The position numbers and the translations under genes were made by a program. A DNA stretch of 64,000 bases from Sphingobium sp. Z007 (lineage in GTDB: Bacteria > Pseudomonadota > Alphaproteobacteria > Sphingomonadales > Sphingomonadaceae), in the NCBI RefSeq assembly GCF_900013425.1, contig NZ_FBXK01000001.1, positions 804,501 to 868,500 of the forward strand, read 5' to 3'. The notes under the pieces are model-generated. The model searched no databases. It was not told the origin of the DNA and saw nothing but the letters and a program-made list of their open reading frames with translations. Below are positions 1 to 15,039 of this stretch, in pieces (positions within the stretch are counted from its first letter, which is position 1; each line of letters opens with the position of its first letter).

Positions 1-290
1 ACATAGCTGCGCGTCACTTGCCCTGCATCGTCAATCTCGCGGGCGAGGAACTTGATCCAGGCGTCCGATCCGCCTTTCTCGACGGCAAGACCTTTCTCGG
101 CCGAGAATTTGATATCCTCGATCTCGCCGCCCTCGCACACGACATGGTTGATGTCGCGGTTGGAGAGACGGATCCGACTGGTCTGATCGGGCAGCGCATG
201 GAGCGTCTGACCTGAGGCCGGGATCGCCAGCAGCATGAACCCGGTTAGAGCGGCGCACGCTCCTATGCGCTGATTAGCGTGTTTCGACAT
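1..290 (-). CDS. traK: TraK, F-type conjugation pore protein (partial)
   Basis: TraK is the periplasmic VirB9-like ring protein of F-type conjugation systems, acting with TraV and TraB in the outer-membrane core. Reading the minus strand from an ATG at 288-290 gives MSKHANQRIG, a hydrophobic signal segment ending near AIPASGQT, then a mature start with LHALPDQTSRIRLSNRDINH, a typical TraK opening. A GAGGAG ribosome site lies 7 bases upstream, inside the end of traE, so the two genes overlap by 17 bases. About 96 residues are present and the rest lies beyond the left edge. The annotation rests on gene order (A-L-E-K) and on this N-terminus. Confidence 0.82.
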   Translation of the reverse strand, partial: MSKHANQRIGACAALTGFMLLAIPASGQTLHALPDQTSRIRLSNRDINHVVCEGGEIEDIKFSAEKGLAVEKGGSDAWIKFLAREIDDAGQVTRSY

Positions 291-909
291 CGAACTGCTC
301 CTCGGAAAGACGCGTCAGCCAGAAACGGCCATTTTCAATGCCGTAGCCGATGCGTAAAATGCCCCGGAATTTGCGGATTACGCCGCCGATGACACGGACC
401 TTCTCGACCGGGACGACGATCTCATGGGCGGTCCAGCGGACCGGCTGATCGTTGCGGATATAGGTGGCGATCGACAGCGTAGGGTTGTTCGCCAGTTCGT
501 CGAGCATGGCGTTGAGGCTGTCGCGCATCGCGCCATAGGCGGACGGGTGAACGAGCCCCAACAGCTCCTGGAACTGCCGGTCGGCCGAGTAAGCCGACCA
601 GGTGCCCGACAGCGCGACGATGTTGCGCGTCATGGCGACGATATAGGCTTCGGATGGCGTATTACCCGAGACATGAAGATCGCCTGTGGCGCCAAAGGGG
701 ACAATCACGGTCCGGGCATTCTGGTTGGTCGTGTAGATGACCACGCCCAGCACGGCGGTGACGCCGAACATGCCCGCAATGGCAACCTTGAGCAGGCGGT
801 TTTCCTCGAACAGGTTGGCCGAGCCCTGCAGATAGCGATGGATGCCGTAGCTGGCCGGTTTGCCCAGTAGCGGATCCTCCTTTGTCTTTTTGTGCCCGAA
901 CATGCCCAT
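274..909 (-). CDS. traE: TraE, type IV secretion inner-membrane protein
   Basis: TraE is the VirB8-like bitopic inner-membrane protein of F-type transfer systems. The 211-residue product starts MGMFGHKK, has one membrane helix at about residues 30-50 (LLKVAIAGMFGVTAVLGVVIY) and a periplasmic domain that ends in RLSEEQFDVETR. The length is close to the usual 190-210. An open frame extends further upstream, but the ATG at 907-909, six bases after the traL stop, fits the family N-terminus. It lies between traL and traK in one minus-strand operon. Confidence 0.9.
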   Translation of the reverse strand: MGMFGHKKTKEDPLLGKPASYGIHRYLQGSANLFEENRLLKVAIAGMFGVTAVLGVVIYTTNQNARTVIVPFGATGDLHVSGNTPSEAYIVAMTRNIVALSGTWSAYSADRQFQELLGLVHPSAYGAMRDSLNAMLDELANNPTLSIATYIRNDQPVRWTAHEIVVPVEKVRVIGGVIRKFRGILRIGYGIENGRFWLTRLSEEQFDVETR

Positions 910-914
910 GGCGC

Positions 915-1181
915 TCACTCGAAGAAGCGGGTCTGGGTAGGACCCGGATAATAAGGAAAGGAAACAAGACCCCAGCGCCAGGCGAGATGGGGGAGATAGC
1001 CCCTGGGCTTGGTCCGCTTCCACGGGATGAAAAGGAGAAGGGCAGCGATGAGCGCCCAGCCGACAAGTCCGCCCACGATCGCGGCCACGAAAATGCTCGA
1101 GGTCGCGAGCAGAAACTCGTCAGATCCAAACCAAAGGATCTGGACGGGCCGATGCAGATATTGCGGAAGGCGTTCGTCCAT
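915..1181 (-). CDS. traL: TraL, type IV secretion protein
   Basis: TraL is the small VirB3-like inner-membrane protein needed for pilus assembly. The 88-residue product begins MDERLPQYLHRPVQILWFGSD and has paired hydrophobic stretches at about residues 25-55, followed by a basic region and a C-terminal segment ending TRFFE. An ATG eight codons upstream (1205) is possible, but an AGGAGA site sits directly before the ATG at 1179-1181, so that start was chosen. It follows traA and precedes traE by five bases. Confidence 0.88.
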   Translation of the reverse strand: MDERLPQYLHRPVQILWFGSDEFLLATSSIFVAAIVGGLVGWALIAALLLFIPWKRTKPRGYLPHLAWRWGLVSFPYYPGPTQTRFFE

Positions 1182-1310
1182 CTGCCCTTCTCCTCTTGGC
1201 TTCATGATACCTTCAAAGGTATCATCCTCCAGGAACCGACCATCGGTTCCCAGCCTGTTGCCAGTGGGGGAAGCGCCTGGTCAGCCAGGTGCGCGCCCCA
1301 CCTTCGCGTC

Positions 1311-1625
1311 TCAGATGACCATCCCGAAGGTCTGGAGAATGGAGTCCGCCTTGATGAGGCAGACAGCCGCGACGATGGTCGGGATGCCAATCATGATATT
1401 CGAGAAAAGGCGCGAAACGCCGAACAGGAAGGCAGCGACGCCGCCCACAAATCCCATCGGACCTTTCACGCCCTGGTTCACGACGATATCGTATATGTCG
1501 TAACCAAGATCGCCCTGGGCGGGTGCCGAGAAGGCATGGACCGGGCCACCGACCAGGGCCATCGCGCCTAAAGGGAGGCCGACATTGGCCACCGCCAGGA
1601 CCTTGTTGCCAAATTTCTGCATCAT
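1311..1625 (-). CDS. traA: TraA-like F-type pilin precursor
   Basis: This 104-residue protein fits the major pilin (VirB2/TraA class). It has a long basic-hydrophobic leader (MMQKFGNKVLAVANVGLP), a probable signal-peptidase site near HAFSAPAQG, and two hydrophobic helices at about residues 58-74 and 77-93 separated by a short loop. The gene order before traL-traE-traK matches F. The start is the first of two adjacent ATG codons, with GGAG seven bases upstream. The frame is open further upstream through a Pro/Asp-rich stretch, which overlaps the end of dsbC and lacks a ribosome site. Pilins diverge strongly, so the call rests mainly on context and topology. Confidence 0.78.
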   Translation of the reverse strand: MMQKFGNKVLAVANVGLPLGAMALVGGPVHAFSAPAQGDLGYDIYDIVVNQGVKGPMGFVGGVAAFLFGVSRLFSNIMIGIPTIVAAVCLIKADSILQTFGMVI

Positions 1626-1821
1626 AGCATTGCTCCAAAAAGGAGCCGTCCAACCAAAGCCTGCCGGCATCGAAGCAAGATCGGTGTCGGCCGGGGCGTC
1701 GGTGGACGGCTCCATGAGCCCGCCGCCGCCGGCATCCTGGTTCATCCGCGCTGGCCAGTTGGGGCCGGGCCGGATGCCCTCCGCAAAGAGATTGTGCGCA
1801 GCCGCGATGGCGCGCGCCCGT

Positions 1822-2634
1822 TCAGCGCCGCACATCGGACACTGCCTTTGCAAGCGCAGGCTTTGTGTGCCGATCGAGGAACGCTTCGAGTTCGGCCTGC
1901 TGAAAGCCCGAGATGAACTTGCCATCGGCGACCAGCGTCGGCGTTCCTGAAACGCCCACTTTGGCGACCAGTTCAGCGTCCTCCGCAACCTTGGCACGGC
2001 CCTGCGCGCACTGGCGCAGGACGGGGGGTGTCTGGCCGGAATAGGCCGCCCGGAAGGCCGCCTCGCGATCTGTCGAGCATAGGATATGCTCCGCCTTGGC
2101 GGCAGCGGTCGGATGGATGCCGCTCACGAAGAAGATGAGACGCCTTACCGGCTTGCCCTCTGCTGCCTTGGCGCTCCAGAACCGATCGAGCGCCTGGCAG
2201 TAAGGACAGTCCGGGTCGGTGAATTCTATGACCGTTGGCGCATCTACAGGGCCGATCGCCAATGCCTTGGCAGGGTCGATGGCTTTGACACGGCGCGTGG
2301 CACCCTGTTCCTGCGCCAGCGCGGTCAGGTTGACGCCGTTGCGGTCGTAGACCGTGGCGAACAAAAGATGCTCACTTTGCGGCGCATAATAGATGATCCG
2401 GCCGCCAGCGGTCGCCTGATAGATGGGGCCCTCGACGGGCGCCGGACCAAATTCTTCGAAGCGCAGATTGGTGAAGGTCTGGTGAAGCTGCGCTTGCGCA
2501 ATCTTTGCGGCTTCTCCCAAAGCCACAGGAGAAGTAACCGCAGTCGCCTCTTGCGCAATGCTGGGGGTCGAGAACATAATCGTTCCCGCAAAGCCGACGA
2601 GCAAGCCGACACCTACCGATAGCGTTCTGTCCAT
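1822..2634 (-). CDS. dsbC: DsbC-type periplasmic disulfide isomerase
   Basis: This is a thioredoxin-fold protein for disulfide isomerisation in the periplasm, of the kind that accompanies F-type Tra genes (TrbB/DsbC class). The 270-residue product has a signal peptide (MDRTLSVGVGLLVGFAGTIMF, cleavage near SIAQ), an N-terminal dimerisation-like region, then the active site CPYC in EFTDPDCPYCQALDRFW and the cis-Pro loop GVSGTPTLVADG. The ATG at 2632-2634 has AGGAGA about 11 bases upstream; the longer open frame upstream has no signal peptide. It is the first gene of the minus-strand dsbC-traA-L-E-K run and probably folds disulfide-containing Tra proteins. Confidence 0.9.
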   Translation of the reverse strand: MDRTLSVGVGLLVGFAGTIMFSTPSIAQEATAVTSPVALGEAAKIAQAQLHQTFTNLRFEEFGPAPVEGPIYQATAGGRIIYYAPQSEHLLFATVYDRNGVNLTALAQEQGATRRVKAIDPAKALAIGPVDAPTVIEFTDPDCPYCQALDRFWSAKAAEGKPVRRLIFFVSGIHPTAAAKAEHILCSTDREAAFRAAYSGQTPPVLRQCAQGRAKVAEDAELVAKVGVSGTPTLVADGKFISGFQQAELEAFLDRHTKPALAKAVSDVRR

Positions 2635-2830
2635 GGGCGCAAGTCTCCTGAGTAGTAGTCGAGCTTCTGGCCTTGAGAACCACTTGATGATCTGGTCCCG
2701 CGCCAAGCTTTGACGGCCTTGTCGTTTCAACCCGGCCTGAGTGACAGCAGGACCAGCCGGGTCGCAAGGCAGGAGGAACTGCCGTTCCGGTTTGAGGTAA
2801 TGAAGTGCCGATGATCGGAGCCACACTGCC

Positions 2831-2858
2831 GGAAACCGGAATTACATTTCCGGTTTCC
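2831..2858. promoter_or_regulatory. perfect 11-bp inverted repeat in divergent intergenic region
   Basis: GGAAACCGGAA and TTCCGGTTTCC flank a six-base spacer (TTACAT). A further half-site TTCCGGTTT lies at 2785-2793. The site is between dsbC (minus) and the gene at 2966 (plus), where an operator for a locally encoded regulator would be expected. Which protein binds is unknown. Confidence 0.55.
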
Positions 2859-2965
2859 TGCTTTGTTCCCATGGCCGTTCGGGTTCTACTTTAGCCGAAT
2901 CAACCGGCATGCATGGGAATGGACAAGACAAGCATGTTTTTTGCCAAGTCAGATGGAGGGCGATA

Positions 2966-3391
2966 ATGGCGCATCAGGCATCCAGAGCATATAAGCTCCA
3001 ACTGTCCGACGCAGGAATGCAACTTTTCCTGGATGATCATTGCCGGCTATGTCATTTGGTCGGGGATCTGTTGTCCTATGGTTCGACCCTGTTCGTCGCC
3101 GTCCACCTGCTGCATCTTTGCCCAGGGGGGGAAATGGCAAACGCGTTGCTCGATCCCGAACTGCACCAGTTGGGAGGTCGTAAAATCCGTCATGTCGGAA
3201 CATCCCGCATCTTATCGGATCTCGTGCACTCGATCGCAGCCGAGATCGAAACTGCGGGTGTCATCTATTCATCACCCCAAGTCTGGAAAATTTTTCTAGC
3301 GGCCCTCCTGCATATGCGGGACGCTGAAGATGTTCACATATTGAGAAGCTATCACGTCATGCTCGACAAGATTAAGCGTTCAGCGAGATAG
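2966..3391 (+). CDS. hypothetical protein
   Basis: I do not recognise this 141-residue protein. It begins MAHQASRAYKLQLSDAGMQL and has a DDHCRLCHL stretch with two cysteines, a hydrophobic alpha-helical middle (VGDLLSYGSTLFVAVHLLHL) and a C-terminal helix-rich part. No signal peptide is visible. The ATG at 2966 has GGAGG eight bases upstream, which excludes the longer frame from 2909. It diverges from the tra operon and precedes a helix-turn-helix gene, so it may be regulatory. That is inference from position only. Confidence 0.6.
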   Translation: MAHQASRAYKLQLSDAGMQLFLDDHCRLCHLVGDLLSYGSTLFVAVHLLHLCPGGEMANALLDPELHQLGGRKIRHVGTSRILSDLVHSIAAEIETAGVIYSSPQVWKIFLAALLHMRDAEDVHILRSYHVMLDKIKRSAR

Positions 3392-3404
3392 GTCATAAAA
3401 CACT

Positions 3405-3550: not shown

Positions 3551-3955
3551 ATGACGCTTCAAAGTCCGAAAATGACGGGTAGTGAGGCCCTGTCGTTGAT
3601 CAAGGAGCTTTCCGGAAAGCTCATCGAACGCCGCCGCCGCCGGGACCGTATCACGCAACGGCACATGGCGCGCGGTATCGGGCGCAGTGAACGCTGGGTC
3701 CGCGAAATCGAAGCAGGCGTCGAAACTTCGATGATTGAGGATCATATCCGCTGCGCGCACGCGCTGCGCATGACGACACTGCATTTGTTCATTCCTTTAC
3801 TGGCCGTGGAGCATGATATGCCGATACCCAGAGAACTTTTGATGCATGACGATCTTTGGGATCTTGAGCGTGAGATGCTTGAGGTCGTAGCACGGCATCA
3901 GTCTGCTATCCTTACGCGGATCACCCAGCGATCCTTGCTGGGAGGGAGCCGCTAG
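3551..3955 (+). CDS. XRE-like helix-turn-helix protein
   Basis: This small, probably cytoplasmic DNA-binding protein of 134 residues starts at the ATG at 3551, with GGGGAG about eight bases upstream. The core SGKLIERRRRRDRITQRHMARGIGRSERWVREIEAGVETSMIEDHIRCAHAL matches a Cro/C1-type HTH: a recognition helix GRSERWVREIE preceded by QRHMARGI. The C-terminal part is predicted helical without a recognisable ligand domain. It lies just before the GntR-like gene with a 17-base gap, suggesting cotranscription. An upstream ATG at 3434 exists but has a weaker ribosome site. Confidence 0.68.
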   Translation: MTLQSPKMTGSEALSLIKELSGKLIERRRRRDRITQRHMARGIGRSERWVREIEAGVETSMIEDHIRCAHALRMTTLHLFIPLLAVEHDMPIPRELLMHDDLWDLEREMLEVVARHQSAILTRITQRSLLGGSR

Positions 3956-3972
3956 GCTCTGGTGGGGCAGAC

Positions 3973-4596
3973 ATGTCTCCCGAACCAGTCGCGGCGGATC
4001 GCGCCTATCTCCTTTTGAAGACCGATATTCTGTCGGGACGGTTCTCGCCTGGAGGGACGATTATCGAACGCGCTGTCGCGATCGAATATGGTGTATCCAT
4101 ATCGCCGATCAGAGACGCAGCGCAGCGTCTTGTGGGTGAACATCTTCTCGAAATCGGCACCGGTGGTGGATTTAGGGTTCCGATCGCAACGCCTGCCGCG
4201 GTCCGGGATCTCTACAGCTGGCACGACCATCTCGTGCGTCACCTTATCAAGGTGCAGATGTCGACCGAGCTTTTGACACCGAAGTCATTGGTTATGCAGG
4301 ATATTGTTGGAGGGGAGAAAGTCGCGCGAGCCGCCACAGGACTGTTCAGGGCGCTGGCTGATCAAGCCATTAATCGTGAACATGCCCGCTCCCTCCACGC
4401 CGCCAACGATCGTCTTCAAGCCATACGACTCCGGGAGCATCTTGTTATGGACAATCTTGATATGGAGTTGCAGCAGATTACGGCGGCGATCAATTGTGGT
4501 TCAGGTCTGAACCGTTTTTCGGTTCTACGTGCCTATCACCGCCGGCGGATGCGTCGTGCTGAAAAGATATCCGATTCACTTTGGCCGCTAGGATGA
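3973..4596 (+). CDS. GntR-family transcriptional regulator
   Basis: This 207-residue regulator has an N-terminal winged helix typical of GntR (FadR/VanR) proteins: AYLLLKTDILSGRFSPGGTI, then AVAIEYGVSISPIRDAAQRLVGEHLLEIGTGGGFRVP. The remaining 130 residues are helical and fit a reduced FCD-like effector domain, although its metal-binding histidines are not obvious. It sits immediately upstream of, and in the same direction as, the lasso precursor gene. GntR-like genes recur beside lasso loci in proteobacteria, so it is a likely regulator of that operon. Ligand unknown. Confidence 0.8.
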   Translation: MSPEPVAADRAYLLLKTDILSGRFSPGGTIIERAVAIEYGVSISPIRDAAQRLVGEHLLEIGTGGGFRVPIATPAAVRDLYSWHDHLVRHLIKVQMSTELLTPKSLVMQDIVGGEKVARAATGLFRALADQAINREHARSLHAANDRLQAIRLREHLVMDNLDMELQQITAAINCGSGLNRFSVLRAYHRRRMRRAEKISDSLWPLG

Positions 4597-4728
4597 ACAA
4601 TAAAATCAGCAAGCTATGCTCCCGCATTGACATAAAAATAGCGGAAATGCGCGCAAGTACGCAATAGCTACATGCCCGATACCTTATAAGTTCGGTCATT
4701 CTCCATTCTTCATCATAAAATCAATCTG

Positions 4729-4744
4729 GCTGCAATGGTGCAGC
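4729..4744. promoter_or_regulatory. inverted repeat in the lasso precursor leader
   Basis: GCTGCA-ATGG-TGCAGC is a perfect 6-bp inverted repeat ending 22 bases before the precursor ATG. The 170-base gap between the GntR gene and the precursor (4597-4766) is AT-rich and must hold the lasso promoter. No confident -35/-10 pair was identified. The repeat could be an operator for the adjacent GntR protein or a 5' UTR hairpin. Confidence 0.4.
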
Positions 4745-4766
4745 TGATTTCAGAATGGAGGCTATT

Positions 4767-4901
4767 ATGAATCGCGAAGAACATGTTGGATCCGAGCTGA
4801 TCGACCTCGGCTCCGTCGCGGAAGAAACCAAGGGACCCGGTTTCGACAACAGCGACGGGATCGGCGGTCAGCAGCTCGTCCCTGGACTCTCGGACGACTG
4901 A
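4767..4901 (+). CDS. lasso peptide precursor (A protein)
   Basis: This 44-residue gene encodes a probable lasso peptide precursor. Translation from the ATG at 4767, which follows a GGAGG site seven bases upstream, gives leader MNREEHVGSELIDLGSVAEE followed by T-K, then a core that starts G-P-G-F-D-N-S-D and ends GLSDD. The threonine at position -2 of the core is the conserved lasso leader feature. Gly1 and Asp8 would close an eight-residue macrolactam ring, leaving a 14-residue tail. The B and C maturation genes follow directly. From the sequence I calculate a monoisotopic mass of about 2125.96 for the cyclised 22-residue core (linear minus one water). Confidence 0.9.
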   Translation: MNREEHVGSELIDLGSVAEETKGPGFDNSDGIGGQQLVPGLSDD

Positions 4902-4909
4902 AATGCCGG

Positions 4910-4940
4910 GCACGCGGGCCATACCAGCCCGCGTGCTTTT
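4910..4940 (+). terminator. intercistronic hairpin with short T-run after lasso precursor
   Basis: GCACGCGGGC (4910-4919) pairs perfectly with GCCCGCGTGC (4927-4936) across a seven-base loop, and TTTT follows at once. It starts nine bases after the precursor stop and ends before the ribosome site of the B gene (GGAGG, 4950-4954). The position and weak T-run fit a partial terminator or mRNA-stabilising hairpin that keeps precursor mRNA in excess over the enzymes. Confidence 0.75.
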
Positions 4941-4962
4941 CGCTGTTCGGAGGAAATAGGTC

Positions 4963-5637
4963 ATGTATTTCGGTCTTCGGCCTGGCTTGAGCTTTTGCAT
5001 ATCGGTGGATCGCGTGATCCTGCTGGACCTTGCGATCGGTCGCTATTTTTCATTGCCGCCACATTTCCATGAAAGCTTTTCGCGTTGGGCATCTGGTGCG
5101 CAGCCTGCTGATGACGATCTCGATCACCTCCAGAAGCTGATAAATGAAGGCATTTTCGTTACGCTGCCTCAGCGACCTGACCCCGAACTGACGATTTCCG
5201 CAAAAGTCACTCCACCAACCACGCAAATCGATGTTGGTCACGCGCACCCGCCGCTCACATCCGTCATCGGGGCAATATGGTCTCGTTTATTGTGGTTGAG
5301 GCGAGCCAAGCGTTGGCCCTTTGCCCGGATGATCGAACAACTTGGCGAATTGGCCGATCATGTGGATAAAGGGTCTTCGGAGTTACACAATGTGAAGCTG
5401 GCGCAAATCGCCCGCTCATTCGAATATGCCGATCTGATCGTTGGTAGCCATGACCGTTGCCTGTCGCGATCGCTGGCACTCGCGGTCACTTGCCGCAGGC
5501 AGGGGTTGCCGACAATGTTGGTGATCGGCGTTCAGGCAGATCCCTTCGCAGCCCATTGCTGGGTACAGAAAGGAAGCACGATACTCAACGAAAAGCCGGA
5601 CCGTGCGAGAATGTTCTTGCCGATAATGGTGGCGTGA
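4963..5637 (+). CDS. lasso peptide maturation protease (fused B1-B2 protein)
   Basis: This 224-residue protein is the cysteine protease that removes the leader peptide. The N-terminal 80 residues fit the precursor-recognition (RRE, PqqD-like) B1 region: a VDRVILLDLAIGRYFSLP strand pattern, then helices. The C-terminal part fits the transglutaminase-like B2 protease, with Cys166 in SHDRCLSRSLAL and His198 in FAAHCWV. Glu210 in ILNE lies 12 residues after the histidine, where McjB is expected to have its acidic residue. It is full length with both halves fused. Its stop codon overlaps the C-gene start by one base, so the two are translationally coupled. Confidence 0.9.
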   Translation: MYFGLRPGLSFCISVDRVILLDLAIGRYFSLPPHFHESFSRWASGAQPADDDLDHLQKLINEGIFVTLPQRPDPELTISAKVTPPTTQIDVGHAHPPLTSVIGAIWSRLLWLRRAKRWPFARMIEQLGELADHVDKGSSELHNVKLAQIARSFEYADLIVGSHDRCLSRSLALAVTCRRQGLPTMLVIGVQADPFAAHCWVQKGSTILNEKPDRARMFLPIMVA

Positions 5638-7385
5638 TGAAGCACCGCTACCTCCTGCTCATTCTTGCTGAAGATGAAGGGCACCAAGAGCATATCCAGC
5701 ACATCGCGACTCTAACCCAGCTACCTCTCGTCTGGCGGCATGGCCGAATTATTCTGTTCTCGGATCAACTACTCGATGTTCTACTCTTACCCAAAGGGAA
5801 TGGCGTGATCATAGGCAAGCTGTTTCGCCGTCACGGATATCCTGAGCAGGTTTGCGAGCTAAAGTCTGATGATGCCGCTCGATTTGCGCCTGATCCGGTC
5901 CAATCTCTGATCGAACACTATTGGGGCAGCTATGTTGCGGCAATTTCAATTTCTAATCGTGTAACGATACTACGCGACCCATCCGGCGGAATGCCTTGCT
6001 ACTATCTATCATTGAGCGGGATCGCTGCGCTCACGTCGGACATCTCTCTCTTGATCGACACGGGGCTGTTCACGCCTTCAGTCAATTGGAATGGAGTGGG
6101 AAGGACGCTCTATTGGCACCAGTTGCCACCAGAAGAAACAGCACTTTCCGGTGTATCGCAGCTTTTGGGTGGATGTTCGCTGATCCTAGAGGGACGCGAG
6201 ATAAACAGGGCAGAAAACTGGAGTCCTTGGAACTATACCGCTTATGACGGAGATGACGATCGGAAGAAACGTAGCGAAGGGCTGGGGCGCGTTGTCCAGG
6301 CTTGCATAAGCGCGTGGGCGTCCTGTTTTCCGCGCGCGCTGGTTGGTCTATCGGGAGGACTGGACTCATCCATTGTGACTGCTTGCCTGGCTAGAAGCAG
6401 CGCCAAGGTTACGTGTTTGACCTTGGCTACTGACGATCCGGTTGGCGACGAGAGGTCATACGCCCGGTATGTCAGTGGGGCCATTGATGCCGAACTTATC
6501 GAAGACTTCTATTCAAACGACGATATCGATCTGGATAAATCAGTTGCTGCAGGCTTTCCCATCCCTTCAGGGAAAGCGCACGAACAGACCTATAACAAGA
6601 GAGTGAGAGCCGCGGCCGCAACTTCTCAAGCTGCCGCATTTTTCGTGGGTGCTGGAGGAGACAATGTTTTCTATCTTACGCATTCGGTTCGACCTTTGCT
6701 TGATCGGCTAAGGACTGAGGGATGGTCGTTGGATTTGGTCTCCACCGCGCGCGATATTTGCCGTATCACCGGCGCGAATATTTGGGAGGTGGTAGCCGAA
6801 GCTGTTAGAATTTCCCCAAGGACGACAGGGCTTCAGTGGAACGGTGCGGGAGACTATCTCAGTCGGGAATTTGTGGAGAGCGAGCGCGGCCTTCTGCCAG
6901 AACATCCCTGGCTGAATTCCCCGGCCACGGTACCGCTGGGGAAAAAGGGTCATGTAGCGATGATCTTGCGTGCTCTGCATCACATTGAGCATCGAGATAA
7001 GGCCTTGGCGGTACCGATGATCAGTCCGCTATTATCCCAACCGGTCATCGAATTCTGCCTGGGCGTTCCCTCGTGGTGGGCGTGCGAAGGAGGCATCGAC
7101 CGCGCTGTTGCTCGGCGCGCATTTGCTGACGTCTTGCCTGCCCCTGTCTCTGGTCGATCCGGAAAGGGCAGCCCGGATGGCTTTGTCGCGAGATTTATCG
7201 CTCGTCACCGTGCCGCAATAAGCGAACGCCTTCTGGAAGGAAATCTCGCCCGCCACGGGTTGCTTGATCGGGCGGCCGTCGAACGCGTAATGGCACCGAA
7301 TGCAAAGTTTGAGTTGCTTGATTGCCCTCGGGTGATGGCGCTGCTGGATACCGAAGCATGGACCAATTCTTGGTCTGCGCGATAA
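5637..7385 (+). CDS. lasso peptide cyclase, asparagine synthetase-like (C protein)
   Basis: This 582-residue protein would activate the ring Asp side chain as an acyl-AMP and form the isopeptide bond with Gly1. The C-terminal domain has the PP-loop SGGLDSS at residues 239-245 and downstream ATP-site segments (VGAGGDNVFY, GRSGKGSPDG) typical of class B asparagine synthetases. The N-terminal glutaminase-like domain has no catalytic Cys2, since the product starts MKHRYLLLI, as expected for lasso cyclases that do not use glutamine. The start ATG at 5637-5639 shares one base with the B stop. The gene is convergent with the isopeptidase, with a 48-base gap. Confidence 0.92.
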   Translation: MKHRYLLLILAEDEGHQEHIQHIATLTQLPLVWRHGRIILFSDQLLDVLLLPKGNGVIIGKLFRRHGYPEQVCELKSDDAARFAPDPVQSLIEHYWGSYVAAISISNRVTILRDPSGGMPCYYLSLSGIAALTSDISLLIDTGLFTPSVNWNGVGRTLYWHQLPPEETALSGVSQLLGGCSLILEGREINRAENWSPWNYTAYDGDDDRKKRSEGLGRVVQACISAWASCFPRALVGLSGGLDSSIVTACLARSSAKVTCLTLATDDPVGDERSYARYVSGAIDAELIEDFYSNDDIDLDKSVAAGFPIPSGKAHEQTYNKRVRAAAATSQAAAFFVGAGGDNVFYLTHSVRPLLDRLRTEGWSLDLVSTARDICRITGANIWEVVAEAVRISPRTTGLQWNGAGDYLSREFVESERGLLPEHPWLNSPATVPLGKKGHVAMILRALHHIEHRDKALAVPMISPLLSQPVIEFCLGVPSWWACEGGIDRAVARRAFADVLPAPVSGRSGKGSPDGFVARFIARHRAAISERLLEGNLARHGLLDRAAVERVMAPNAKFELLDCPRVMALLDTEAWTNSWSAR

Positions 7386-7433
7386 GATGTTGACGGACTT
7401 GACCCTCAGAAACGCTTGTTTCGTTCCAAGACT

Positions 7434-9542
7434 TCAATGTCGAATGTATTTTTTGCGCATCTCCTCCCAGCGAAGCACATCACTGTGACCTTCGGTGTCC
7501 GTGGGTCTTTGATCGTTCAACCAAAAATCGAACCAGGCAAGATTGCGGCGATATACCGCAAGTCGGTGGGCTGGTTGCCATTTGATGTGATCCTCATCCG
7601 GAAAGATATAGAGTTCACTTGGAATATTTGCCTGCGTCAGAGCCGTATGGCTTGCGACCATCGCTAAATATTCGTTGTCTGCGGCCTGAAACAGCATCGG
7701 GAACCGTACGCGTCCTGGTTGTGCCATCACCGATATTTGAGACCAGAAGTTGGTATCCATGTCCGCCAGGCGAGGCCATCCTCCATCATGATAGCTTTGT
7801 GCAACGATTGGCCCCAAAAACGCATCCTGCACGGGTTCCCATCCGCACCCCGACACCGAACCAGCGGAGAAAAGCATACTGTGAATGGCTGCGAACTGCA
7901 CCGTTGTGCATCCATCGCTCAAGCCAGTGATGCCGATCCGTTTCGGATCGACGAACCCACGGTCGATCAAAGATCGCGTCGCGGCCTCGATCGCCGAGAC
8001 TATGTGTCGGCGTCCTGCAAAATCACGATTGAATGCCGCCGTTAGAGCACCGGCTGACTTCTGTTTGCCGACGATATCCTCATAAGTCAGATTGTCGACG
8101 ACCAGCACGAAATATCCCCGATTGGCAAATGCCTGGATCGGAACTTCGTCGCCGATCCCGCCGCGCAGGAATCCCCTGGTTCGATACTGAACAATGACAA
8201 GCGGATATCGTTGTCCGGTCTTGAAGCCGACCGGATAAACCAGATCACCATAAAAGGGGACGCCAAAGCCGTTCCGCCAATTCAGACGCTCGGCTGCCCC
8301 CAGGATCAGCGACGCAAACTCTGGATTTGGATCGAAAATCTTCTGCTCTTTCGTGCGATCCAGCCCCAGCATCACAAAATGTCTCGGCGCGAGTGATTGC
8401 TCGCGCAAACAGAGAAGGTCATTGCCCAATGGCTGGCATTCAACCAGATCGTCGCTCGTCAGATATAGACGCCGCACCGTGCGACTGCCCGGTCGCCATT
8501 CGTAAATTGCCGTCAGGCTGTTCGCCCAGCCTTCCTTGCGCGCAAAGCGAAGCTGTTTGCCGTCACCCGACCACCAAAAAGAAACCGATCTGTCCGGTCG
8601 GCACAGGTCTGCCGGGCAGACTAGGCGACGGCCCGTGCCCATTTCAACGACCACTCGGTAATCTGGTGGATATACCGACCTGTTGACTGGTTCCGCATAG
8701 GCGCTCCAACTCGAAGGCCCTAACGAATAACCGATCTTATCGGCGGCGGCGGAGGCGGACGGCATAAAGATGCTGATCTCGCCAGGAGAAGCAGGGCGCT
8801 CGATACCACTGCTTATCTCGATCGTGACATAATGGCGCTCCGGGTTTGGTGTTTGCGGCCGAGCGCCGCGGACAGGAAATGCTCGCTCGTCATAGCGCCA
8901 TCCCGACAGTCCCTCCTGATCGATAGTGGCATTCATTGTGATGAGGCCAGGGCGCGCCGCATAGATTATGGCGCGCCCGTCAGACGATATACGGAAATCA
9001 TCTATATCCACTGGAGCGCGGGTTATCTGCCTCGCATCGCCACCGGTGACCTTTGCTCGCCAGACCTGTGTTCTGCCTCCTGCGCGCTTGAGATAGGCAA
9101 TCCACCGTCCGTCAGGCGCCCAGCGCGGCGTCACTGGTGCGGGGGAGCCAATAGGGAATGCCGCCCAGCCATATCTCGCCGGTTCGTCCCGGATCAGTTC
9201 GGTGCCGATATCCAGCAGCCTCGGCCGAGCCGCTGGCGCGAGAGGGAGGAGCACCAAGCCTGTGCAATAGCGGTTCTCTCCCGGATCGGCGCGATGCACT
9301 AGAAAAGCAACCGCGCGATGGTCGGGAGAGAATGTGAACAATGGGCGTGTGCGATCAGGACGGGGCGCAGGCCCAATATCCCTCAGCCTGGCTAACGCCT
9401 CAGGGGTTGCCGGGCCCGGAACACCGCTGATCGCATCCGTCTGTAGAAGCGTTTCGCAACCGTCGGCCGCCAGAGCGGGTTGGCCAATGCCTCCTAAAGC
9501 CGACGCCGTCAGCAGATGCACAATAATGAGATAATGGCGCAT
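7434..9542 (-). CDS. lasso peptide isopeptidase (prolyl oligopeptidase family)
   Basis: This 702-residue serine hydrolase has a signal peptide (MRHYLIIVHLLTASALGGIG, cleavage near ALAA), an N-terminal beta-propeller with WD-like strands (FTFSPDHRAVAFLVHRA, APDGRWIAYLKRAGG) and a C-terminal alpha/beta hydrolase domain. The predicted triad is Ser542 in GITGLSDGC, Asp622 in QAADNEYLA and His652 in DEDHIKW. Proteins of this family (AtxE2 type) cleave the isopeptide bond of cognate lasso peptides. It starts one base from the stop of the TonB receptor gene, so receptor and enzyme form one operon: import, then linearisation. The signal peptide suggests a periplasmic site of action. Confidence 0.9.
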   Translation of the reverse strand: MRHYLIIVHLLTASALGGIGQPALAADGCETLLQTDAISGVPGPATPEALARLRDIGPAPRPDRTRPLFTFSPDHRAVAFLVHRADPGENRYCTGLVLLPLAPAARPRLLDIGTELIRDEPARYGWAAFPIGSPAPVTPRWAPDGRWIAYLKRAGGRTQVWRAKVTGGDARQITRAPVDIDDFRISSDGRAIIYAARPGLITMNATIDQEGLSGWRYDERAFPVRGARPQTPNPERHYVTIEISSGIERPASPGEISIFMPSASAAADKIGYSLGPSSWSAYAEPVNRSVYPPDYRVVVEMGTGRRLVCPADLCRPDRSVSFWWSGDGKQLRFARKEGWANSLTAIYEWRPGSRTVRRLYLTSDDLVECQPLGNDLLCLREQSLAPRHFVMLGLDRTKEQKIFDPNPEFASLILGAAERLNWRNGFGVPFYGDLVYPVGFKTGQRYPLVIVQYRTRGFLRGGIGDEVPIQAFANRGYFVLVVDNLTYEDIVGKQKSAGALTAAFNRDFAGRRHIVSAIEAATRSLIDRGFVDPKRIGITGLSDGCTTVQFAAIHSMLFSAGSVSGCGWEPVQDAFLGPIVAQSYHDGGWPRLADMDTNFWSQISVMAQPGRVRFPMLFQAADNEYLAMVASHTALTQANIPSELYIFPDEDHIKWQPAHRLAVYRRNLAWFDFWLNDQRPTDTEGHSDVLRWEEMRKKYIRH

Positions 9543-9543
9543 A

Positions 9544-12132
9544 TCACCATTTCTTCGTCAAAGTGAAATTGACGAACCGGCCGTAAAGCGAGTGGTTTGT
9601 CGAATCCGCCTGCACTTCAGCGGCATAAGTGGCCCGAATTCTTGGCGGCCTGGCATTGAAGAGGTTCTGGATTCCGACCTGCCATTCTACATCGGCGAAT
9701 AGCCCGCGCTGGGCACCGCTGCGGATCGTGGCGACCGTATCCAGCGTAGTGAAGGAATCCACCTTCACGGTGGGTGAAAGGCGATTATCTTTGGTTTTGC
9801 CGATATATGTGCCTGTGGCGGACAGATTGACATTGTCCCGCTGCCAGTTTGCACCCAGCCGGCCACGCCAGTGCGGCAGGGTGAAGATGATCCCCGCCTG
9901 CTCCACCAATGGCAGGCCGGGTGCGATCTCCCGGATACTGTCGAGATAACTCGCCGATCCCTTCAACGACAATTGCCCATAGGGGCCGAGATCCCGGCGG
10001 TAGCTTGCCGAGAAGTCGACACCTTCCAGTCTTTGCACGGAGATGTTCTGAAGGTAATTCCGAAATATCGCTGAAACCGCAGCGGGGTCAAAAGTGCCGG
10101 TCGTCAGGTTCGTAAACACGCCCGTTATCCCGTCGATCGCGGACAGGACGTCCGATGCGCTGGGGTTGGCCTGTATGAAGTCGCTGTAGACTGGCTGGAA
10201 AGCCCTCCCTGATGAAGCGACGGGTGAGGCTATGCGATTGCGATAACGAATATTGAAATACCCTATCTCAGCCTTGAACCCGTCCATAAATGTCGGCGTA
10301 ATCGCCACTGAGGTCGTCCAGGTCGTTGCGCGTTCGGGTTCGAGGTCCCGATTGCCTCCAAACAGGTAGAGGACCGGGAGATTTGTCGGAGGGGCTGGAT
10401 TATATCGTGTGCTTGGAACGAGCTGTGCGTTGGTCAGCTGACCGGTCTGATACAGATTGGGAGCCTTGAACGACTTGCCCCAACTCCCTTTGAATTCGAC
10501 GCTTTCGAATGGCGAATAGAGCAGGCCCAGCTTCGGTGTGGTTACGCGATCGATATTATCATGATCTTCATACCGCAGGGCACCGATCAAATTCAACTTG
10601 CGGATGAGGCTGATGCCATTGGCGGGCGCCACCAAGGGCAGGAATAATTCACCATAGCCAAAAGCCACGTCCCGCGTTTCGCTGAGGGCTTCGGTCGCGG
10701 CCTCAATGCCGCCGACAACGGCACGTGAATCGATTGTGAGCGTGTTGGATCGATAGCCCGCTCCAACCGCCAGCCTCGCTTCGCCGCCAGGCAATGAGAA
10801 GAGCGGTCCTTCAGCGCCAAGTTCGATCGCCTTCAATTCGTTGCTGTAGTTGGGTAGCGCGCGGTAGGTTTCCGTGCCGGCAGAAAATACGCTGGTGACT
10901 ATTTCCGTATCGCTTTTGCTGTAGGTTCCCGACAGGCGGGCATTCCAATCCGCCGACAGTTCGACTTTCAGCGCCGGGGATAATGACCAGCTATCAGCGG
11001 TCGATTCCACGACGCTGCCCTGCGCGTAGCAGCTCGACGCAACGACCGCGATCAGGCATCGTGACGTGGAGCGGTGCATGTAATGACCATCGAGTTCGAA
11101 GCCAATCGCATCACTGATCGCCTGATGCCCCGCCATCACCAGACTGATCTGGTCTTGCGCGGGTATCAGCGTTGCGTCGGGAGCGACGTTGCCGGTGTAG
11201 GATCGCTGACGCGCGGTGATCTGGCTAGAATCCTGATAATCTGCCGCTACCATGAAGCCACCGGTGCGCCACGATGAACCTGCAACGATGTTATACTGCT
11301 GCGTGACGGACCCGCCATCGGTCGCCGCTCCCAGCCTAGCAGACGTGACGACACCGTCGATGTCCCGTCGCAAGGTTATGTTGGCGACACCTGCGACGGC
11401 ATCCGAGCCGTATAACGCCGATGCGCCATCGGCTACGACGTCTATCCGCTCGATCGCGGCCAGCGGGATCGATGAAATGTCGATTCCCTGGCTGATGGCA
11501 TCGAAGGCGACGCGATGGCCGTTTATCAAAGTCAGCGAGGCATCCGGTCCGAGGCCGCGCAAGTTCAGTGCCGATGAACCGGATACATTTGTGAACCCTC
11601 CTTGGCCGGCTGCGGATAGGGTCGGATTTTGACCACCGGCGAAATTCTGCGGCAAATCGCGGATGATCTGGCCAAGATCGGTCTGGCCGGCTGCCAGGGC
11701 CTCCTGGCGACCGATAGTCGTAACCGGTGAAGTTGATGGACCGCCACGAATGCGCGTGCCCGTCACTATAATGCCGATTTCGCGACCCTCGGTTTTCTCA
11801 CTTGTGGTTTCAGAAAATCGCTCCCGGATAAGAATAGCTCCATCTTGATCGACAGCTTCAAGGCCCGTCCCTTTGATCAGGGCTTCGACCGCCTCGATCG
11901 CCGTGTAGGTGCCGCGCAAAGGAGGGGCCTGCCGTCCTTTGACCGAGCGAGGCTGGAAGATGATCTCATAATTGGTCGAGCGGCCCACCAAAGCCAAGGC
12001 ATCCGCCAGATCCTGCCGATCGAGATGGAATTCCTCTCCCTGATTCAACGCTGCAATGGTCGGTATCGGGGCGGTGGCTGCCACGATCGCCATCGCTGAA
12101 CTGAATGCCCACATTGCGATCTTCATCATCAT
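9544..12132 (-). CDS. TonB-dependent receptor with STN signalling domain
   Basis: This 862-residue outer-membrane receptor begins with three ATG codons and a signal peptide (cleavage near TIAAL). An STN (secretin/TonB short N-terminal) domain at about residues 33-105 contains FHLDRQDLADALALVGRSTN. A TonB-box-like IIVTGTRIRG at 121-130 follows, then a plug domain (LNLRGLGPDASLTLINGHRV) and a 22-strand-type barrel ending VNFTLTKKW. The STN domain marks it as a transducer that contacts the FecR protein encoded just upstream. Context suggests it imports or senses a lasso peptide. A 64-base gap separates it from the FecR stop. Confidence 0.92.
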   Translation of the reverse strand: MMMKIAMWAFSSAMAIVAATAPIPTIAALNQGEEFHLDRQDLADALALVGRSTNYEIIFQPRSVKGRQAPPLRGTYTAIEAVEALIKGTGLEAVDQDGAILIRERFSETTSEKTEGREIGIIVTGTRIRGGPSTSPVTTIGRQEALAAGQTDLGQIIRDLPQNFAGGQNPTLSAAGQGGFTNVSGSSALNLRGLGPDASLTLINGHRVAFDAISQGIDISSIPLAAIERIDVVADGASALYGSDAVAGVANITLRRDIDGVVTSARLGAATDGGSVTQQYNIVAGSSWRTGGFMVAADYQDSSQITARQRSYTGNVAPDATLIPAQDQISLVMAGHQAISDAIGFELDGHYMHRSTSRCLIAVVASSCYAQGSVVESTADSWSLSPALKVELSADWNARLSGTYSKSDTEIVTSVFSAGTETYRALPNYSNELKAIELGAEGPLFSLPGGEARLAVGAGYRSNTLTIDSRAVVGGIEAATEALSETRDVAFGYGELFLPLVAPANGISLIRKLNLIGALRYEDHDNIDRVTTPKLGLLYSPFESVEFKGSWGKSFKAPNLYQTGQLTNAQLVPSTRYNPAPPTNLPVLYLFGGNRDLEPERATTWTTSVAITPTFMDGFKAEIGYFNIRYRNRIASPVASSGRAFQPVYSDFIQANPSASDVLSAIDGITGVFTNLTTGTFDPAAVSAIFRNYLQNISVQRLEGVDFSASYRRDLGPYGQLSLKGSASYLDSIREIAPGLPLVEQAGIIFTLPHWRGRLGANWQRDNVNLSATGTYIGKTKDNRLSPTVKVDSFTTLDTVATIRSGAQRGLFADVEWQVGIQNLFNARPPRIRATYAAEVQADSTNHSLYGRFVNFTLTKKW

Positions 12133-12196
12133 TTGCCCCCATCATGCCGGCCTGTTTTCCGGTTCCATGGTAGCTACGACGACGAAGACGAGTTGA

Positions 12197-13303
12197 TTAT
12201 GATGGCGGGCGGCAATTTCCCTGGGAATTGGCAGGACAATCGCGGGCAAGGGAAATCGAGGCTGGGCCGGTGATCACCGCCAGCGCAAGCAGATCGGCCA
12301 GATTACGGGCGAGGCGGGGCGTGTCGGTGATGCGGAACGTACCGGACACCCGAATTGCGCTCACCTCCGGCGTCGCGGCGATAATGGGAATCGTCGCATA
12401 GCGATTGGCCTCTTCAAACAAATCTCCGAGCCTGATGTTGGTATAGTCCCGCAAGCCGTCGGGCCAGCGTGCATCGTCTGTTGCAGCTTTTTCGATTTGC
12501 GGTGCGCTCATGGGTTTGGCCGGCAATGCCACTTGCTGCCCCGGTGAAAGTCTGATCGCTGTTTGGCTTTTGCCAAGGGCCTCGCCCTCGACGTCAACGG
12601 CACCGCGCATGAGGCTCACCCGAACGAATTTCTCGGGACTGATCGCGACATCGAAAATCGTGCCGCGCGCGACAACCGTCCTTTGACCGGCGTGTACGGT
12701 GAACGGCCTGTTTTCATGCGCAACCGTGAAACGCCCGCGTCCACGTATGAGCTGCAGATCGCGGCGGGATGCGTCATACCGCACGAGTACAAGACTATCT
12801 GTATCCAGGGCAACCACCGAGCCATCGTCGAGCTGGAAAGTGCGGATTTCACCCGAAGATGTCGCAAGCCGCAATGGTGCGGGCATGGATGCCCGCGATG
12901 CGTCGGAAGGGGCCTGCGCCATTCCGGCACCATCGAGCACGGGTGAACCCAACGCCCAATGCGCGCCGAAGGCCATCACGACAACTACGCCTGCAACCAG
13001 CAGCGCCTTTCGTTTCCGGCCCCATCGCGTCGCGGGCTGATCGACGGATACCGAGGGCGCGGGAACGGCTTCTGCCACGTCATGCCCGCCGCCTGCCTCG
13101 TCCTCCTTCAGATATTTACCGACGCTATATGTCTCGGCGATCCGGCTATAGGCGGCGCGATGCAACGCGCCGCGGGCCAGCCAGGCTTCGAATTCCTTGC
13201 GCCTGACGTCCGCTTCCTCGGGATTGCGCATGATGGCGAACCAGTCTGCGGCTTCTTCTCTTAGCTGGCCATGACGACGTGGCGGCTGGGTATCGTCCAT
13301 CAT
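12197..13303 (-). CDS. FecR-family anti-sigma factor
   Basis: This 368-residue cytoplasmic-membrane anti-sigma regulator has a DUF4880-like N-terminal helix (LREEAADWFAIMRNPEEADVRRKEFEAWLA) that binds the sigma factor. One membrane helix lies at about 100-118 (ALLVAGVVVVMAFGAHWAL). The periplasmic FecR domain includes IRTFQLDDGSVVALDTDS and FTVAHENRPFTVHAGQRTVVARGTIFDV. The C-terminal STN-contact region is present. Its ATG overlaps the sigma stop by four bases (ATGATGA arrangement), giving strong coupling. It would relay ligand binding at the TonB receptor to the sigma factor. Confidence 0.92.
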   Translation of the reverse strand: MMDDTQPPRRHGQLREEAADWFAIMRNPEEADVRRKEFEAWLARGALHRAAYSRIAETYSVGKYLKEDEAGGGHDVAEAVPAPSVSVDQPATRWGRKRKALLVAGVVVVMAFGAHWALGSPVLDGAGMAQAPSDASRASMPAPLRLATSSGEIRTFQLDDGSVVALDTDSLVLVRYDASRRDLQLIRGRGRFTVAHENRPFTVHAGQRTVVARGTIFDVAISPEKFVRVSLMRGAVDVEGEALGKSQTAIRLSPGQQVALPAKPMSAPQIEKAATDDARWPDGLRDYTNIRLGDLFEEANRYATIPIIAATPEVSAIRVSGTFRITDTPRLARNLADLLALAVITGPASISLARDCPANSQGNCRPPS

Positions 13304-13869
13304 TCCTGTTCCAAAGCTGCATCGATATGTGCAAGCGCGCGGGCGACATGATATTGCACGGTCGGGATGGAAATGCCTAGCCTGCCGGCAATCTCCTTGT
13401 AGGTCAGTTCGTCGACCCGGTGCAGCAGAAACACGTCTCGCGTCCTGTCGGGCAGCTCGCCGAGCGCACGCCGATAAGCACGCATCATGTCTTCGACTTC
13501 AATGCGAGTCGCCTGATCCGGCGCGACCGCAGGTTCATGCTGTTCGCCGATCGGCACATGGCAAGCGGCAAGGCGCGTCTCCAGCCGCTTGTATCGATCC
13601 AGCAGCAGGTTGCGCGCGATCCGCTGCAAATAGGCCGCCGGTCTTGGCAAGCTGGTCTTCGCCATGCATCCAAGAAGCCGGATAAAGGATTCCTGTACCA
13701 GGTCGCCGGCGTCATCGCTCGAAGAACGCAAACGGGCCTGGAAATAGCGGCGGAGCCGCGGCGCCTCGACTTCATAGATTTGCCGAACATCGACAAATTC
13801 CAAGCCGGTTCTTTCCTGTGTTTCATTCTCCGTCAGTTCACGCGGACGGTCGATTTCTTTTGGCGGCAT
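13300..13869 (-). CDS. ECF sigma factor (FecI-like)
   Basis: This sigma-70 family factor of 189 residues has region 2 (LRRYFQARLRSSSDDAGDLVQESFIRLL, then AYLQRIARNLLLDRYKR) and region 4 (RALGELPDRTRDVFLLHRVDELTYKEIAGRLGISIPTVQYHVARAL). The start MPPKEIDRP at 13869 has GAGGAA upstream. The longer open frame to 14034 has no ribosome site. It heads the sigma-FecR-receptor-isopeptidase operon and would activate that operon and perhaps the precursor promoter. The upstream 240 bases (13870-14109) have no gene and should hold its own promoter; I saw no certain ECF-type -35 element. Confidence 0.92.
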   Translation of the reverse strand: MPPKEIDRPRELTENETQERTGLEFVDVRQIYEVEAPRLRRYFQARLRSSSDDAGDLVQESFIRLLGCMAKTSLPRPAAYLQRIARNLLLDRYKRLETRLAACHVPIGEQHEPAVAPDQATRIEVEDMMRAYRRALGELPDRTRDVFLLHRVDELTYKEIAGRLGISIPTVQYHVARALAHIDAALEQE

Positions 13870-14109
13870 GAAAACACGGTTCCTCACGATACGGCAGTGC
13901 TGGCCCACGCGCATGGCGAGGGAGAAGCTGTGTGAGGTGAACCTTACGCTCCAGAATTTGGAGGTAGGCCGTCCGACCCGTATGTCGAACGTCGAAATAC
14001 CTGACAGGATAATCCTGCGGGTGGCTGCCAGCACTCCAGCCCGTAAGGCCGATGTTATCGAGGGAGGAAGGGCGGATCAAGCCTTTGCAGGGCGAAATTG
14101 CTCCATCGG

Positions 14110-15039
14110 CTAACTCTCCAGCCGGTCAGCAGCAGCTTTCAATTCGGCGATATGATTGGTGCAGATTTCATGCACGCACTCCCCTAGCGTCTGGATGTGC
14201 GCCTGCAACCAGGTAAGTTCCTCGAGCGAAATCTTGAAGTGCTTGGAATATTGCGCTTTGCGATAGGCTTCCTTGAGCTTCTGAAACAAGGAACGTTCGG
14301 CCTTTGTACCGCGCGGCCAGACATCGAAAAGCTTCCTGTCGAGGCCTTCGGCCAGGGATCGTAGAAAGATGATATTATGGTCGTATGGCGTATAGAAAGT
14401 CAGGGTCAGCAGAACACATTGGTACAACCGTTCCGTGGCCTGCTGGAGATCGTAAGCTGCGTCGCGATGATAGCCTTCAGAGGTATAGAATTGAGCGCCT
14501 TTAAAACGCCTCATGCCAGCAGGAAACATTTCTTCGAAATATTCTTTTGCTGCGAGATAAGCCTGCTCTGGCGTCTTGGGCTTTGCCGACGCCAGCAATC
14601 GATCGTCTGATTGATAAAGGATTGCACCGTCCTTGACGATCTCCGAGAACAGGACGCGTCCATGGGCCAGCGCGTCGTTTACCTCCTGGAGTGAGTGCAC
14701 GATGAAATTGACGGGCGTCCGAATGCTTCTTTCGACAAGATAGGCATCGACGAGGCGCTGCTCGGTCTCGGCCCAATAAGCGGCCCGATCTGCAAGTTCC
14801 TTCTGATTGACGATCACCAATATGTCGTAATCGGATTTGAATTGATTCGCATCCAGTGGTGCATCAACCCAGTCGCCTCGCGCATAGGAGCCAAAAAGGA
14901 TGACCTTGAGAATGCGAGCAGACTTTTTCCTGCCCTTGGCATCCTGTGTCGCTTCGCGGAAGCCCTGGAAAAGCATTTCGACGACATGGTCGAGTTCGCG
15001 CTGCTTGTTGGCAGGGATATGATTGATATCCGTCTTCAT
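14110..15039 (-). CDS. fused MNT-HEPN protein (nucleotidyltransferase plus HEPN)
   Basis: This 309-residue protein joins two halves usually encoded as separate toxin-antitoxin genes. The N-terminal nucleotidyltransferase has ILFGSYARGDWVD and, further on, KSDYDILVIV, giving the G-S-x10+-D-x-D arrangement of minimal nucleotidyltransferases. The C-terminal half is a helical HEPN domain with the R-x4-6-H motif in AYRKAQYSKHFKI. In split systems the MNT partner AMPylates and silences the HEPN RNase; a single-chain version may be self-regulated or act on tRNA. The start is the ATG at 15037-15039; the codon before it is TTG. It lies beside a PIN/AbrB pair. Confidence 0.82.
   Translation of the reverse strand: MKTDINHIPANKQRELDHVVEMLFQGFREATQDAKGRKKSARILKVILFGSYARGDWVDAPLDANQFKSDYDILVIVNQKELADRAAYWAETEQRLVDAYLVERSIRTPVNFIVHSLQEVNDALAHGRVLFSEIVKDGAILYQSDDRLLASAKPKTPEQAYLAAKEYFEEMFPAGMRRFKGAQFYTSEGYHRDAAYDLQQATERLYQCVLLTLTFYTPYDHNIIFLRSLAEGLDRKLFDVWPRGTKAERSLFQKLKEAYRKAQYSKHFKISLEELTWLQAHIQTLGECVHEICTNHIAELKAAADRLES

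Follow-up and report, generated by a model that had tools for sequence, protein, structure and literature searches.

Among lasso peptide clusters that encode an isopeptidase, gene order is almost constant: according to the available text of PMC9266682, a GntR-like regulator stands before the precursor gene, and a TonB transporter together with sigma and anti-sigma factors comes after the isopeptidase. The same text calls the function of these peptides enigmatic. Judged by sequence, the nearest published relative found for the peptide described below is sphingocin (SpgA, Sphingomonas sp. BPH), predicted with RiPPMiner and described, in the accessible part of PMC11006600, with a 22-residue core: 14 of 22 residues are identical to the core reported here (GPGF.N.DG.GG.....GLSDD) and eight are unlike it, the end of the leader is similar, and A, B and C genes are accompanied by a divergent isopeptidase gene and a TonB receptor gene, as in the present case. 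Insertion of Tn5 in the sphingocin B gene abolished growth on phenanthrene (PMC11006600). Sphingonodin I, given in the accessible text of PMC12427821 as the 17-mer GPGGITGDVGLGENNFG, has the same GPG start and Asp at position 8, but otherwise shows little similarity. Benenodin-1, which gave the family its name, has an eight-residue ring and an isopeptidase (BenE), and was isolated in truncated form (PMC13352647, PMC9266682) – minus five tail residues according to the part of PMC13352647 available. The astexin-2/-3 cluster has a similar setting of GntR, TonB and sigma genes, and its isopeptidase, AtxE2, is homologous along most of its length to the one reported here; the astexin-3 ring is one residue larger than the ring of a benenodin-1 chimera (the setting and the ring size from the available text of PMC9266682).

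The window – the whole stretch of DNA that was analysed – comprises 64,000 nucleotides from Sphingobium sp. Z007, and the features discussed are collected in Table 1. The core encoded by its precursor gene (A) is different from the cores of both benenodin-1 (a peptide that shows thermal switching) and astexin-2/-3. The cluster is complete and conforms to the canonical isopeptidase-type order, as set out in the available text of PMC9266682: the GntR, A, B and C genes lie on the forward strand, and the genes for the isopeptidase, TonB receptor, FecR regulator and ECF sigma factor on the reverse strand. The same order, A-B-C followed by the opposed isopeptidase-TonB-FecR-sigma block, is found in Sphingobium sp. 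RAC03, S. fribergensis and Sphingopyxis DBS4; Novosphingobium PP1Y has it too, but with no GntR gene directly before A. Alignment of the isopeptidase with the AtxE2 crystal sequence (5txc) extends over residues 28-696 (E 2e-118), and the GLSDG serine motif and a C-terminal histidine motif are retained (residue roles read by eye). Searches by sequence for solved relatives of C and of B found none.

Table 1. Features of the lasso locus and its surroundings (positions are those of the window).
Feature	Position	Strand	Basis
F-type conjugation module end: TraE, TraL, DsbC-like	274..2634	-	identity to RAC03 pBSY17_1
HTH regulator (start uncertain)	3551..3955	+	HTH models matched below cut-offs only
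GntR-family regulator, upstream of A	3973..4596	+	PF00392
CTTATAAG motif, possible operator or promoter element	4683..4690	+	exact in 6/58 family upstream regions
5' leader of A: inverted repeat GCTGCA-ATGG-TGCAGC (probable RNA hairpin)	4729..4744	+	stem census, compensatory changes
Ribosome site of A, GGAGG	4757..4761	+	sequence; kept in RAC03 and YR768
A, lasso precursor gene	4767..4901	+	44 aa and stop; NF033522 and PF24178 matches
A-B intergenic hairpin, 12-bp stem, probable attenuator	4908..4938	+	fold energy
B, leader peptidase (transglutaminase-like)	4963..5637	+	NF033537, 74 bits (cut-off 33); PF13471
C, predicted lasso cyclase (asparagine-synthetase-like)	5637..7385	+	PF00733 above threshold
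Atxe2-type lasso isopeptidase	7434..9542	-	NF033523, 764 bits (cut-off 400)
TonB-dependent receptor with N-terminal STN domain	9544..12132	-	PF00593, PF07715, PF07660
FecR-type anti-sigma regulator	12197..13303	-	PF04773, PF16220
ECF sigma factor (start codon uncertain)	13300..13941	-	PF04542, PF08281

Translation of A yields a 22-residue leader (MNREEHVGSELIDLGSVAEETK, 4767-4832) followed by a 22-residue core (GPGFDNSDGIGGQQLVPGLSDD, 4833-4898). What the sequence-only reading had picked out here – the open reading frame, the GGAGG ribosome site, Thr at leader position -2 (T21 of the precursor), Gly1 (G23), Asp8 (D30) and the GLSDD end – was all found as claimed, and profile matches of the neighbouring genes confirmed that A lies directly 5' of B and C. 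The ribosome site ends five bases upstream of the ATG, and because of its position the start at 4767 is preferred over a longer in-frame alternative at 4755. A matches NF033522 (benenodin family lasso peptide) across positions 1-43 of 43 with 48.2 bits (curated cut-off 33), and PF24178 (subterisin) with 61.2 bits (curated cut-off 27); since both scores exceed the cut-offs and the gene stands directly before B and C, we consider A genuine. The opposite case, that A is a chance reading frame and the true gene an antisense ORF, could appeal to the RAC03 record, in which the precursor is absent from the listed features and WP_237236207.1 is listed antisense over it (NZ_CP016453.1, 275186-275440; that gene table describes itself as incomplete). 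Two curated families, synteny and the fact that changes within the core are exclusively synonymous (see below) rule it out, and we assign it a vanishingly small probability.

Class II lasso peptides have cysteine-free cores, and GPGFDNSDGIGGQQLVPGLSDD contains no cysteine. Across 53 family precursors (54 extracted minus one fragment, with the T-x-G cut imposed by the search pattern) an acid is present at core position 7, 8 or 9 in every case: at 8 in 49, and only at 9 in four. Together with the two family matches and synteny, this supports the earlier proposal of a lasso precursor with a predicted Gly1-Asp8 ring. Asp5 also lies within the ring region, but since lasso rings close at positions 7-9 according to the accessible text of PMC11006600, closure there would not match. 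One point tells against the assignment: C falls below the cut-offs of the NCBIfam lasso-cyclase models (best NF033561, 92 bits against 300; another 50.8 against 525), though it is an Asn_synthase by Pfam and syntenic. With all of this weighed, A very probably encodes a class II lasso precursor of the benenodin/subterisin family with a Gly1-Asp8 ring, in a cluster with an isopeptidase and a TonB-FecR-sigma system, beside transfer genes.

Homology suggests how the parts would work together. B would cut after Lys22 (Thr at -2) to release the 22-residue leader, and C would join the Gly1 amino group to the Asp8 side chain, giving an eight-residue ring with a tail of up to 14 residues; the isopeptidase, which takes the place of an ABC exporter, would reopen the ring. 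The TonB receptor, FecR and sigma factor may detect or take up the peptide, or else a cargo bound to it, and may also control the isopeptidase/receptor side. Among the genes from 3551 to 13941 there was no match to an ABC transporter (the D gene of the microcin J25 type), and the ABC-exporter type of antibacterial cluster was rejected for want of an exporter. An antibacterial role resembling that of microcin J25 would suit a member of the lasso class, and astexin-1 has narrow-spectrum activity; but with no exporter among the cluster genes, and with isopeptidase-type lasso peptides other than astexin-1 described as being without antimicrobial activity (both statements on activity from the available text of PMC9266682), the chances of such a role appear slim.

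The recomputed monoisotopic mass of the cyclised core is 2125.955 (MH+ 2126.963). The MH+ of 2126.96 that had been put forward is therefore right as arithmetic, but it presumes an intact C terminus, which relatives lose: the sphingonodin I precursor extends past the listed 17-mer, and benenodin-1 was isolated shortened. The ion found may thus not be that of 2126.96. For C-terminally shortened forms the predicted MH+ values are 2011.936, 1896.909, 1809.877, 1696.793 (ending ...LVPG) and 1639.771.

The suggestion that the core may be new did not survive comparison: identical cores are present in three public Sphingobium genomes, those of Sphingobium sp. RAC03, S. limneticum and Sphingobium sp. 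YR768. The core is thus already known as a sequence, and the peptide is a further member of the known benenodin/subterisin family with a standard cluster; a full-text search of open-licence literature for the core start GPGFDNSD returned no paper with this sequence. The RAC03 copy resides on plasmid pBSY17_1, and its precursor differs from A by one leader residue. In S. limneticum DSM 25076 the whole precursor is identical to A, and the cluster from GntR through sigma factor shows 99-100% protein identity to the window, so that the DNA probably comes from S. limneticum or a near relative of it. In YR768 all 22 core residues are kept, with three synonymous codon changes and no others, whereas B shows differences at 55 of its 224 residues and C at 103 of its 582: that the core stays invariant next to diverged B and C points to its being under selection. 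With the NF033522 profile, 63 of 397 genomes from the family of the window gave matches (E <= 1e-4), 45 of them above cut-off; to this large family the peptide contributes one predicted core, which public genomes already contain. Cores at two loci (L107, L098) resemble what we take to be sphingopyxin I and subterisin. Solved relatives of the core, sought by sequence, were not found, and positions 4700-5000 had no match among phage records. The DNA pattern coding for the ring matched four stretches outside Sphingobium (L163, L164, L165, L168), of which L163, L164 and L168 proved on translation to lie inside unrelated frames.

DNA identity to RAC03 varies along the window. It is approximately 96-99% over GntR-A-B and 73-90% over isopeptidase-TonB-FecR-sigma (7751-14000), with one 250-base stretch at 96% within the TonB gene; it is 96-97% at 14001-15000, then 83-91% beyond, and 85-89% in DsbC. 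This profile may reflect mosaic recombination or a faster change of the receptor half.

The other side of the precursor is occupied by transfer genes. TraE, TraL and DsbC are 96%, 99% and 92% identical, respectively, to those of RAC03 pBSY17_1, and part of TraK precedes position 274; the cluster is carried beside the transfer genes of a large, probably plasmid-like Sphingobium replicon. Comparison of lasso regions with random windows (19.5 kb, one per contig, contigs of at least 150 kb only) shows that at least one T4SS match is present in 17 of 52 lasso regions, and at least three in 13, compared to one of the 34 random windows (Fisher's test, one-sided: p 0.0005 and 0.005); with lasso regions likewise confined to contigs of at least 150 kb, at least three T4SS genes are found in 12/36 versus 1/34. 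In reading these counts, and the 35 of 52 regions without any T4SS match, it should be borne in mind that the regions lack independence (one core is common to three P-type regions and another to two), that the 52 include L027 (precursor of 32.5 bits, under the cut-off), L110 (whose precursor copy is fragmentary) and L109 (where part of a precursor lies at the end of a contig and no cluster gene was found) and leave out L041 and L042 (weak single-sequence matches, no cluster gene), and that regions cut by contig ends include L033, L079, L080, L103, L107, L109, L147, L149, L174 and L175.

Distances are likewise recurrent. The 397 genomes contain 22 strong F-type TraE loci (a figure that excludes seven matches with E of approximately 1e-6 to 1e-8): a precursor lies 3.1-4.1 kb away in nine (those of G144, 29.9 bits, and G171, 32.5 bits, are below the cut-off of 33, and G011 is cut by a contig end), and none lies nearby in 13 (including L147, which ends at DsbC, too early to tell whether a lasso cluster follows). 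Combined, S. limneticum and YR768 have four TraE loci, three of them with a precursor nearby. In P-type trb modules the precursor lies approximately 0.6 kb downstream of TrbI in at least nine loci, with the precursors of G004, G382 and G164 below the family cut-off. F-type tra genes occur at a similar distance from lasso clusters at window positions 1-3400 and in L004, L024, L027, L028, L030, L045, L047, L080, L084, L109, L145, L171, L173 and L174; P-type elements with a precursor after TrbI are L029, L034, L038, L046, L087, L088, L091 and L159-L161. No paper on a link between lasso clusters and conjugation was found in the open-licence literature searched (including the available parts of PMC8600333 and PMC6771000). 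Lanthipeptides have been described beside genetic-exchange and defence genes (PMC12715929, from the part available).

A tree of five transfer proteins (25 modules, midpoint-rooted) places nine lasso-bearing modules, including that of the window, in a single all-positive group (support 0.986). Two further lasso-bearing modules pair (one of these, L109, being positive only by its precursor fragment), and one stands apart as sister to a lasso-less module. Among tra modules whose TraE is 84-96% identical to that of RAC03, identity of C to the window ranges from 94-99% down to 32%: 94% in RAC03, 82% and 53% in the two YR768 modules, 36-37% in the second cluster of the window's own genome, 34% in N. 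humi and 32% in G144. F-type linkage as a label changes five times on each of two trees, that of C (59 usable loci of 65; shuffled mean 9.4, minimum 7) and that of the isopeptidase (57 of 65; mean 8.5, minimum 6). These changes are fewer than in shuffles, yet number five on each tree: F-type linkage is clustered but was gained or swapped several times. Co-resident pairs of lasso clusters were seen in the window's genome and in YR768, and in both the two clusters differ. The second, different benenodin-family cluster of the window's genome lies on the same 1.17-Mb contig (L024; G000:C1:206001-226000), where it adjoins a tra module of close similarity (TraE 91% identical to RAC03); a stretch with three transposase-like genes interrupts the B gene of this cluster (identified by eye).

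Modules that carry no lasso cluster show what else may occupy this place. An HTH gene stands beside DsbC in 11 of 13 lasso-less tra modules; the genes that come after it vary (read by eye in 11 of the 13), and the site may thus be a hotspot for insertions. As its relatives are found beside tra modules without a lasso cluster, the HTH regulator of the window probably belongs to the tra side. These observations favour a reading in which the lasso cluster is ordinary cargo at a plasmid or ICE transfer-module hotspot and serves the host, for example in siderophore-like scavenging or hydrocarbon use; the loss of growth on phenanthrene caused by Tn5 in the sphingocin B gene (PMC11006600) agrees with it. 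By itself, however, cargo status leaves unexplained both the nine lasso-positive modules in one tra group and the swap of one lasso cluster for another at one position. We put its chances at about even.

The alternative is that the cluster has a function within conjugative elements: it would supply a peptide signal or discriminator, produced by cells harbouring the transfer module, perceived through the TonB/FecR/sigma system of similar or dissimilar carriers and terminated by the isopeptidase. The T4SS enrichment on contigs of at least 150 kb, the constant distances from TraE (including those in S. limneticum and YR768) and from TrbI, and the fact that similar tra modules keep the place but differ in lasso cluster are all as it would predict. 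Set against these are the 13 of 22 TraE loci without a precursor, the 35 of 52 regions without a T4SS match, the relatedness of the loci, the several counted precursors under the family cut-off, and the HTH and varied genes of lasso-less modules, which may mark a hotspot; moreover, no gene links peptide and transfer. We hold a role in conjugation to be unlikely. Its general form – isopeptidase-type lasso clusters as recurrent, position-fixed modules of F- and P-type elements, providing an element-specific signal or discriminator whose specificities are exchanged and differ when co-resident – is equally speculative and carries a low probability. Nevertheless, enrichment beside two conjugation machineries, fixed positions and interchangeable specificity make it a directly testable hypothesis on lasso function, and why such clusters sit so often, and interchangeably, at the ends of transfer modules is a question worth pursuing.

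Several DNA and RNA elements surround A. The fold of 4895-4965, which spans the A-B hairpin, has an energy of -31.3 kcal/mol (z -3.18), and the hairpin is absent from the output of a terminator scan; for astexin-1 expression, a table in PMC7549694 (in the part available) mentions that a hairpin was removed. A sigma-70 promoter scan of 4590-5000 found none, and Rfam gave no match to 4600-5100. The inverted repeat in the 5' leader begins 38 and finishes 23 bases upstream of the ATG. Of 58 distinct family regions upstream of the precursor, 40 contain a perfect stem of at least five pairs between 55 and 9 bases from the start; in 100 mononucleotide shuffles the count averaged 8.4 and never exceeded 14. 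With one G-T in its stem, the YR768 copy next to the identical core fails this strict criterion. By the same criterion, with starts chosen automatically, stems occur before B in 34/52 (the A-B hairpin) and before C, GntR, isopeptidase, TonB, FecR and sigma genes, pooled, in 71/264.

In an alignment of 53 of the 58 upstream regions (omitting RAC03, Sphingobium V4, the second YR768 module, G144 and L088, which shares the same 48 bases with L087), and with a structure taken from the window, 81.8% of cells pair and 42 cells are changed on both sides, a count for which shuffles give 17.4 and slid controls no more than 10. Two of five covariation measures (pairs with both-side change, further pair types) lie within the shuffle range (141/500 reach them). 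RNAalifold predicted no pairs on this alignment, and the case for a hairpin thus comes from the stem census and from pair counts made with the window structure. We consider the repeat a probable covarying RNA stem; alternatively, it may be a palindromic regulator site. A covarying stem suggests shared control, and expression constructs that replace the 5' leader would lose it. Further upstream, 84 bases from A, lies the palindrome CTTATAAG, which also occurs exactly in RAC03, both YR768 modules, L024 and Sphingobium V4; in shuffled upstream regions its mean count is 0.11 and its maximum 2, compared to the six real regions, making it a candidate GntR operator or promoter element.
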